Source of the DNA: Apostichopus japonicus
Lineage: Eukaryota; Echinodermata; Holothuroidea; Aspidochirotida; Stichopodidae
DNA: 64,000 nucleotides
NCBI RefSeq assembly: GCF_037975245.1
Contig: NC_092578.1
Span: 20,044,821-20,108,820 of the forward strand
Direction of reading: 5' to 3'
Shown here: positions 41,901 through 44,900 of the stretch, piece after piece
Layout of the letters: each line of letters opens with the position of its first letter
Numbering within the stretch: the first letter of the stretch is position 1
The notes under the pieces: model-generated
Seen by the model: only the letters and a program-made list of their open reading frames with translations
The model's database searches: none
What the model was told of the DNA's origin: nothing
Program-made: the position numbers and the translations under genes

Positions 41901-44900
41901 GATGGTGTAATTGTATCAGTAATGTGCTATGATTAAGTTACTACAGTAGGTAGCACTCTTACTCCATGATGTTCTTAGTGTGATGGGATGTAGGTGTGCA
42001 TAATACTCTAAGCATGATAATATGGTGTTAGGATGGTGTAATTGTATCAGTAATGTGCTATGATCAAGTTACTACAGTAGGTAGCACTCTGACTCCATGA
42101 TGTTCTTAGTCTGATGGGATGTAGGTGTGCATAATACTCTAAGCATGATAATATGGTGTTACGATGGTGTAATTGTATCAGTAATGTGCTATGATCAAGT
42201 TACTACAGTAGGTAGCACTCTTACTCCATGATGTTCTTAGTCTGATGGGATGTAGGTGTGCATAATACTCTAAGCATGATAATATGGTGTTAGGATGGTG
42301 TAATTGTATCAGTAATATGCTATGATCAAGTTACTACAGTAGGTAGCACTCTTACTTCAATATGTTCTTAGTCTGATGGATGTAGCTGTGCATAATACTC
42401 CATAATACTCCATCAATTAGACCAGAACACTACAGGTAATTGCATATATCATTCATGGTGCATTTTATTCCTCACTTTCTTTAAACTCATTTGCTGCCTG
42501 CAGTTAAATATTAATTGACTTGTGATGATAAGTTGCAAATCAAATGCATTCGTTCTTACATTACAGAACCACAGGTGAGATCAATTGCAGACCATGTGCG
42601 TCCAGACAGACTTAGTAAGTGCTTTACAACAAAGACAAGATGGTGTGATATCGTAATACTCATTCATGCATGCGGGTCATCACACATGGGTTACAGCAAC
42701 CACAGATTGATTACTTTCTTCAAATTCATTTATCATCATATTCTTACTAATTCTTAGATAAACAATAAAATCAAAGTGTCTGGAAAATTTTAAACCTTAA
42801 CTTTAATAAAAAATAAAAAGTCTGTTGTGATAACCATTCTAGGCATTGGAACAAATATGTTTTGGTGTTTTTGTGTGAATGTTGTGTTCATTTTTTTTCT
42901 CACCTTCAGCCTTACTGTTTAGTGCAACATTTCGAAAGAAGGTTGAGCGGCTGGCCAGGGACATCTTGACAGATCCTGTAAGGGTTGTTCAAGGAGATAT
43001 AGGGGAGGTAAGTACTATAGTTGCCTAATATGAGGGTTGTTCAAGGAGATATCGGGAAGGTAAGTACTATAGTTGCCTAATATGAGGGTTGTTCAAGGAG
43101 ATATCGGGGAGGTAAGTACTATAGTTGGCTAATATGAGGGTTGTTCAAGGAGATATCGGGGAGGTAAGTACTATAGTTGCCTAATATGAGGGTTGTTCAA
43201 GGAGATATAGGGGAGGTAAGTACTATAGTTGCCTAATATGAGGGTTGTTCAAGGAGATATAGGGGAGGTAAGTACTATAGTTGCCTAATATGAGGGTTGT
43301 TCAAGGAGATATAGTGGAGGTAAGTACTATAGTTGCCTAATAGGAGGGTTGTTCAAGGAGATATAGGGGAGGTAAGTACTATAGTTGCCTAATATGAGGG
43401 TTGTTCAAGGAGATATAGGGGAGGTAAGTACTATAGTTGCCTAATACGAGGGTTGTTCAAGGAGATATAGGGGAGGTAAGTACTATAGTTGCCTAATATG
43501 AGGGTTGTTCAAGGAGATATAGGGGAGGTAAGTACTATAGTTGCCTAATATGAGGGTTGTTCAAGGAGATATAGGGGAGGTAAGTACTATAGTTGCCTAA
43601 TATGAGGGTTGTTCAAGGAGATATCGGGGAGGTAAGTACTATAGTTGCCTAATATGAGGGTTGTTCAAGGAGATATTGGGGAGGTAAGTACTATAGTTGC
43701 CTAATATGAGGGTTGTTCAAGGAGATATAGGGGAGGTAAGTACTATAGTTGCCTAATATGAGGGTTGTTCAAGGAGATATAGGGGAGGTAAGTACTATAG
43801 TTGCCTAATATGAGGGTTGTTCAAGGAGATATAGTGGAGGTAAGTACTATAGTTGCCTAATAGGAGGGTTGTTCAAGGAGATATAGGGGAGGTAAGTACT
43901 ATAGTTGCCTAATAGGAGGGTTGTTCAAGGAGATATAGGGGAGGTAAGTACTATAGTTGCCTAATACGAGGGTTGTTCAAGGAGATATAGGGGAGGTAAG
44001 TACTATAGTTGCCTAATATGAGGGTTGTTCAAGGAGATATAGGGGAGGTAAGTACTATAGTTGCCTAATATGAGGGTTGTTCAAGGAGATATAGGGGAGG
44101 TAAGTACTATAGTTGCCTAATATGAGGGTTGTTCAAGGAGATATCGGGGAGGTAAGTACTATAGTTGCCTAATATGAGGGTTGTTCAAGGAGATATTGGG
44201 GAGGTAAGTACTATAGTTGCCTAATATGAGGGTTGTTCAAGGAGATATAGGGGAGGTAAGTACTATAGTTGCCTAATATGAGGGTTGTTCAAGGAGATAA
44301 AGGGGAGGTAAGTACTATAGTTGCCTAATATGAGGGTTGTTAAAGCATGGGAAATCCTATGGAATAATGTTGTATGAGTGGGGTGTTGGGTAGGCAAAGA
44401 TTTTTTATGTTAGTCTATGAAATAATGTCAATATTTCTCTTGGTTTCTGACATCTGTCACCATTTCTGTTTAGGCTAATCAAGATGTTACTCAGGTGATA
44501 GAAATTCTTCCAACGCAGGCAGAAAAATGGACTTGGCTTCTCCAAAGACTGGTCGGTTTCACATCTGCTGGTAGCGTTCTCATCTTTGTCACAAAGAAAA
44601 TCAATGCCGAGGAACTCACTAGTAACTTAAAAGTTAATGACTTTAAAGGTATGGAATTGCCATACAAAGTGCATTTTCTTTTTCTTCACACCTCAGCTTT
44701 CTTTAGTTTGTACATCAATTATAACATGTTGAAGAGAAACTAATGTGAATAGATTTAAGAAATGAGCCTACTGTGTTCTTCCTCCTCACAATTCTGTCCA
44801 CCACTATTTAAACAAAAATGCTTGCTGATCAATGTTTATGCTTGCCCGCTACACCAATGGGAATCAAAAACCCTCTTCTATCTCCTCTCTCTACTTTTCC

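Follow-up and report, generated by a model that had tools for sequence, protein, structure and literature searches.

How can a gene live with 26 tandem copies of one of its own 5' splice sites? The question is raised by a 64,000-nucleotide (nt) stretch of the genome of the holothurian Apostichopus japonicus (contig NC_092578.1, positions 20,044,821 to 20,108,820, forward strand; hereafter the window, to whose numbering the coordinates below refer unless the contig is named), in which a 52-bp unit carrying the donor GTAAGT recurs head to tail from within exon 11 of the DDX42 gene. We consider it probable, at about 0.84, that the array is a minisatellite whose founding repeat straddled an exon-intron border by chance, that it is selectively neutral and that it is tolerated through choice of the first donor. 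With 26 intact donors, and located in a gene that encodes a spliceosomal helicase, the locus is a large and clean new example of its kind.

The array comprises 26 head-to-tail 52-bp units in perfect register and free of indels (26 x 52 = 1352 nt), each made up of the 27 nt of the exon end, GTAAGT and 19 further nt of the intron, that is, 25 nt of intron start in all. The full units stop at 44332 and are followed by an exact 9-nt partial unit; Tandem Repeats Finder (TRF) calls the whole as 42981-44345 with 26.2 copies, 98% matches and 0% indels, and 26 units at this level of identity rule out a chance motif. The count of 26 indel-free copies, each with GTAAGT, made in a preliminary description of this DNA, is thereby borne out, with the partial copy as an addition. 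GTAAGT is kept in 26 of 26 units, in the context GAG/GTAAGT in 25 of them and AAG/GTAAGT in unit 2; scored with a matrix built from the other 15 donors of the gene, 25 donors reach 10.43 bits and one reaches 11.68. The consensus is matched exactly by half of the units (13/26), and the 17 deviating letters among the 1352 are confined to 6 of the 52 columns. A two-unit probe run against the host assembly (671.6 Mb in 35 contigs) gave 13 matches among the best candidates scored, all 13 within the array, which is no proof of uniqueness.

The gene model, obtained by joining 17 exons by hand at AG/GT borders, yields an intact reading frame. In a phmmer search restricted to Protein Data Bank (PDB) chains, the best match of the product is DDX42 (8hk1_E, E 4.2e-263, residues 72-716), and that to DDX46 is weaker (E 8.2e-125); the Pfam domains are DEAD and Helicase_C. 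Judged by this similarity, the gene is the DDX42 orthologue, the match over the helicase core and its flanks exceeding those to DDX46 and other DEAD helicases. Exons are numbered from the one that holds the ATG, which opens with a 3' splice site, so that one or more non-coding exons probably precede it.

Because exon 42910-43007 joined to position 44474 aligns with human DDX42 across the junction without a gap, unit 1 is a genuine exon end and donor 1 the authentic donor. That exon 11 ends elsewhere is ruled out, since only donor 1 together with 44474 is collinear with DDX42. Read-through beyond donor 1 leads to EVSTIVA and a stop. Two further claims of the preliminary description hold accordingly: the array begins inside exon 11 at a real 5' splice site, as the gapless junction shows, and by the reading frame the first donor alone gives full-length protein, the later ones adding VSTIVA and a stop. 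Elsewhere in the gene, exon 2 ends in a weak donor, AAT/GTTGGT (28686-28691), the weakest of the 16 both by matrix and by computed U1 pairing.

Table 1. Features of the DDX42 locus and of the splice-site array within it
Feature	Position	Strand	Remarks
DDX42 gene	26908..52467	+	17 exons, ATG exon to stop; ATG 26916, TGA 52465-52467; 776 amino acids
Intron 10	42615..42909	+	295 nt; gene model
Coding exon 11	42910..43007	+	98 nt; final 27 nt form the exonic part of unit 1; gapless against human DDX42 across the 11/12 junction
Intron 11	43008..44473	+	1466 nt; 166 nt once the 25 extra units are subtracted
Coding exon 12	44474..44648	+	starts GCT AAT (A N), phase 0
Array of 26 x 52 nt	42981..44332	+	unit of 27 nt exon end and 25 nt intron start including GTAAGT
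Donor 1, GTAAGT	43008..43013	+	sole frame-keeping donor
Donors 2-26, GTAAGT every 52 nt	43060..44313	+	first at 43060, last 44308-44313; use of any retains the VSTIVA-stop of unit 1
Partial unit AGGGTTGTT	44333..44341	+	9 exact letters; 13/15 if extended
Block duplication	43189..44228	+	units 5-14 (43189-43708) repeated as units 15-24 (43709-44228)

The array is a new instance of a known object, the 'mirage', a minisatellite that lies across an exon-intron boundary; the term was coined for cephalochordates, and a cephalochordate host is no logical requirement. The DDX42 unit holds the end of an exon and the start of an intron including the splice site (27 nt of exon 11 and 25 nt of intron 11), the array adjoins the authentic boundary, which is still part of the gene (unit 1, with a junction collinear with human DDX42), and, as regards undisturbed splicing, the frame stays intact only with donor 1. 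In lancelets, mirages are described in Adh3, in the globin genes BflGb6 and BflGb9 and in troponin C (TnC), with similar imperfect repeats in PGBD5 (PMC3087553, PMC3902484). According to these accounts, no aberrant mRNA arises from the splice sites that the mirages duplicate in the Adh3, globin and TnC genes, or regular splicing goes on undisturbed (PMC3087553, PMC3902484), the latter reported for the globin genes by reverse transcription PCR (PMC3087553); unit number is said to vary between haplotypes, and somatic instability is cited at Adh3 (PMC3087553, PMC3902484). The BflGb9 mirage duplicates the 3' boundary of an exon, as does the DDX42 array. The units of the latter, at 52 nt, compare with 10-72 bp in Adh3 and 150-160 bp in the globin genes, and its 26 copies with 6 and 3 units in two haplotypes of BflGb6 (PMC3087553).

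Another minisatellite that supplies several splice donors, like the DDX42 array, is that of human IFI6 (G1P3, 6-16). Reportedly, Turri, Cuin and Porter described it in 1995 as a minisatellite with multiple splice donor sites; its unit is 12 bp long and in frame, and the alternative donors alter the protein slightly. The DDX42 array departs from this in-frame type in that 52 is not a multiple of three and the intronic part of unit 1 contains a stop codon. In IFI6, two downstream repeat units are reported to serve as donors, giving rise to three mRNA species (PMC4526556). Internal tandem repeats at exon-intron boundaries of human duplicated genes are likewise reported to alter gene structure, possibly causing novel introns (PMC2812944), whereas the DDX42 array lengthens an existing intron.

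The array would be tolerated because the spliceosome takes donor 1, and no selected function would then be needed. The donors are nearly equal in strength; therefore, position must decide among them. Where both flanking introns exceed about 250 nt, the donor nearest the upstream 3' splice site would be favored; the introns that flank exon 11 are 295 and 1466 nt long, so that this rule of human gene architecture predicts donor 1. In the human study of near-equal donors from which it comes, long flanking introns are reported to favor the donor nearest the upstream acceptor, and a strict short-intron architecture the donor nearest the downstream acceptor (PMC9225289). In five human minigenes with two identical CAG/guaagu donors and flanking introns of 365 nt, the upstream donor was exclusively used, according to the same study (PMC9225289). 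Use of any of donors 2-26 would lengthen the 98-nt exon by 52-1300 nt and bring in the stop codon, so that nonsense-mediated decay would probably remove stray transcripts of this kind as noise. The array also offers an unusual opportunity: with 26 strong donors (25 share all nine letters, one departs at -3) and near-identical flanks in one natural intron, splice-site strength is largely removed as a confounder, and ordinary RNA-seq, by showing which donors along the array are used, would measure the effect of position alone on 5' splice-site choice.

Predicted RNA accessibility points in the same direction at long folding spans. With a window of 240 and a span of 160, donor 1 is 6.2-fold as accessible as the mean of donors 2-25, a ratio reached in 0 of 200 shuffled-unit controls (donor 1 was the highest in 13 of the 200, and in 3 of 40 in the first control set); at spans of 160, 200 and 300, its predicted accessibility exceeds that of all 25 others.

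Several points weigh against exclusive use of the first donor. Among near-equal natural pairs, the upstream donor is reported to win only 60% of the time; without a strength filter, the downstream donor wins about 60% and holds the majority in all four architecture classes; short introns, too, favor the downstream donor (PMC9225289). The 250-nt border between classes is not strict either, exon definition being cited for a human exon whose flanking introns measure 87 and 80 nt (PMC9225289), and intron 10, at 295 nt, lies barely above this border, which was derived from human systems. From IFI6 it is clear that donors in downstream repeats can function (PMC4526556). The lead of donor 1 in accessibility is absent at window 150/span 100 (12 of 25 others higher) and at 200/130 (9 of 25) and is small at 100/60 (2 of 25) and 80/40 (0.19 versus a mean of 0.17), and for an array built of perfect consensus units the ratio drops to 3.9, which 2 of 200 controls attain. 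We accordingly assign predicted accessibility little weight in support of donor 1; it is suggestive at long folding spans only.

The same architecture rule suggests, by our own extension, that the danger lay in the two-copy step, with an intron of 218 nt, and that safety increased as the array grew further. A stronger, rather doubtful version would have the array lock itself: its growth, taking the intron from 166 to 1466 nt, would switch recognition from intron definition (last donor, stop) to exon definition (first donor), and pairing between units would hide the inner donors. If this were so, copy number would set the output of DDX42, two copies being harmful and about three or more safe, and in the strongest form a variable copy number would be a heritable rheostat on a spliceosomal helicase.

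As for the origin of the array, the exonic half of the unit encodes RVVQGDIGE, identical to the corresponding human DDX42 peptide, which identifies the exon as the source and the 25 other units as copies. The sequence AGGGTTGTT recurs at the far end of the array as a 9-nt direct repeat, and the partial unit is probably the remnant of the direct repeat that seeded slippage. Before the amplification, AGGGTTGTT would have occupied the exon end, with a second copy 52 nt further on in an intron of 166 nt; slippage between these two copies, or an unequal exchange, would have produced the first tandem copy, and further events of either kind would have extended the array to 26 units, one step being the duplication of a 10-unit block. 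In such a single-copy ancestor the 9-mer would flank the unit, as in the slippage model of Haber and Louis, in which minisatellites are born from flanking repeats of 5-10 bp, as summarized in a review (PMC6947457).

The block duplication is an internal record of past instability of the array. Units 5-14 and 15-24 differ at one position in 520 nt, 11 of the 16 pairs of units at lag 10 are identical, and the 4 identical non-consensus pairs at that lag were equalled at some lag from 2 to 15 in only 9 of 10,000 shuffles of unit order. Because the two blocks are nearly identical, the array probably grew recently and at least partly by multi-unit exchange, in support of the recent amplification proposed in the preliminary description.

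Tandem repeats are plentiful around the array. Counting arrays with a period of at least 10, at least 2.5 copies and a score of at least 100, 18 non-overlapping arrays make up 48% of the length of the DDX42 gene and 30 arrays make up 32% of the window. In 20 pieces of 10 kb taken at even intervals along the same contig, the figures are 13.7 arrays per 100 kb and 12% cover, a large part of which comes from one piece that is wholly array. The piece 11000001-11010000 of the contig is a single array of about 455 copies of a 22-bp unit, near the contig middle and possibly centromeric. A subtelomeric explanation for this density was considered too: the end of the window is 284 kb away from that of the contig, and five terminal 5-kb pieces contain 5 arrays (20 per 100 kb, 22% cover), a number too small to be informative. 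When the 86 TRF rows are merged by hand into 40 arrays, 22 of them in the gene (periods under 10, including an AGT array, omitted), random founding over 32 splice junctions gives an expectation of 1.1 junction-spanning arrays, or 2.2 if only non-array sequence is counted, and one is observed; that the expectation of 1-2 presumes random founding and a hand-merged list of 22 arrays tells against leaning on this agreement.

The DDX42 gene carries two arrays founded on exon sequence, the second (52459-52880) consisting of five identical 84-bp units that start from the last two codons and stop codon of the gene (GATTCTTGA) and run downstream. It has only 9 coding letters in common with exon 17, below the reach of a blastn search (E up to 0.01) of the window with the 17 exons as queries, which returned the 25 copies of the end of exon 11 and one 16-nt reverse-strand match of exon 5. 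The DDX42 array shows how a gene in a region rich in tandem repeats can accommodate those that arose from its own exon borders.

The preliminary description had offered two readings, neutral expansion under first-donor preference and a U1-buffering or regulatory device. The former is better supported, by the lancelet mirages, the local density of arrays and the human minigenes; for the latter we found no evidence. On the regulatory reading, which we regard as very improbable, the array would make DDX42 splicing sensitive to the U1 small nuclear ribonucleoprotein or to splicing capacity, with later donors leading to a stop and decay (poison splicing, autoregulation), or would soak up U1 locally. 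Any later donor does retain one common early stop, all 26 GTAAGT sites are intact at no less than 10.4 bits each, the gene, to go by the name of the molecule and the match, encodes a spliceosomal helicase, and intron 13 contains a second array with GTAAGT in the sense orientation (9 times in 9.8 units). However, the probability that at most one of 8 inferred changes would fall in the donor 9-mer is high (P = 0.58), so that the conservation is no better than the youth of the array alone leads one to expect and selection keeping the donors intact is unsupported; furthermore, unrelated arrays abound in the gene, where 18 of them take up nearly half of its length, and in the region, mirages are present in unrelated lancelet genes, and 26 sites per transcript are few compared with cellular U1.

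The array could also be real with its copy number, including the block duplication, reflecting mis-assembly of fewer or more units. A lancelet mirage is reported as apparently mis-assembled in a draft genome (PMC3087553), and the two blocks differ at only 1 of 520 sites; nevertheless, we consider this unlikely, given that the assembly, at 671.6 Mb in so few contigs, is presumably based on long reads, that 1.35 kb fits well within a single such read, and that single-base variants are dispersed among the units. Least plausible of all is an intermediate of intron or exon gain, in which internal units become exons or the array becomes several introns, a model published for lancelet globin mirages (PMC3087553). 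By a matrix built from the 16 acceptors of the gene itself, these acceptors have a median score of 10.7 bits and the strongest AG of the tandem unit reaches 2.1, although one real acceptor scores only 2.5; an exon derived from a unit by way of this AG would be 25 nt long and shift the frame. The gene model needs no further intron, one with a proper acceptor ending at 44473 being sufficient. Formation of a new intron from a duplicated exon carrying AG/GT was likewise discarded, the single intron giving an intact frame, and recursive splicing at GGGAG/GTAAGT is unlikely, the AG there scoring -10.1 bits.

Other repeats and genes in the window deserve brief description. The intron 13 array (45345-45805, 47-bp unit) forms a second row of donor-like sites and gave no blastn match to any exon. 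Across the window, GTAAGT occurs 61 times on the plus strand and 8 times on the minus strand, 44 of the 61 within four tandem arrays. In intron 2, upstream of exon 3 (28924-29672), there are about 33 units of a 23-bp repeat (CATTTGGTTTACAGTTCAGCCTG), in which TTTACAG resembles a 3' splice site by eye. Two arrays with one common 76-bp unit (16372-17116 and 18628-19035) lie about 1.5 kb apart, with reading frames that resemble SDSDSCKSRSENYDSETSYSEL; the open reading frame (ORF) ahead of them (15912-16295) has no Pfam match at E 0.001. As for related sequence in other genomes, a search of viral contigs with a 47-nt pattern gave no matches, and an 18-nt pattern gave one, in a Bacillus genome, which we take as chance. 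A 313-amino-acid ORF on the minus strand (59110-60051) has a weak match to RVT_1, below the Pfam cut-off, and is perhaps part of a non-long terminal repeat (non-LTR) retroelement. Also on the minus strand, 4735-7685 appears, by eye from the ORFs, to hold a trypsin-like serine protease gene in pieces, and the sole piece scanned (6157-6489) matches Pfam Trypsin with E 3.2e-17.
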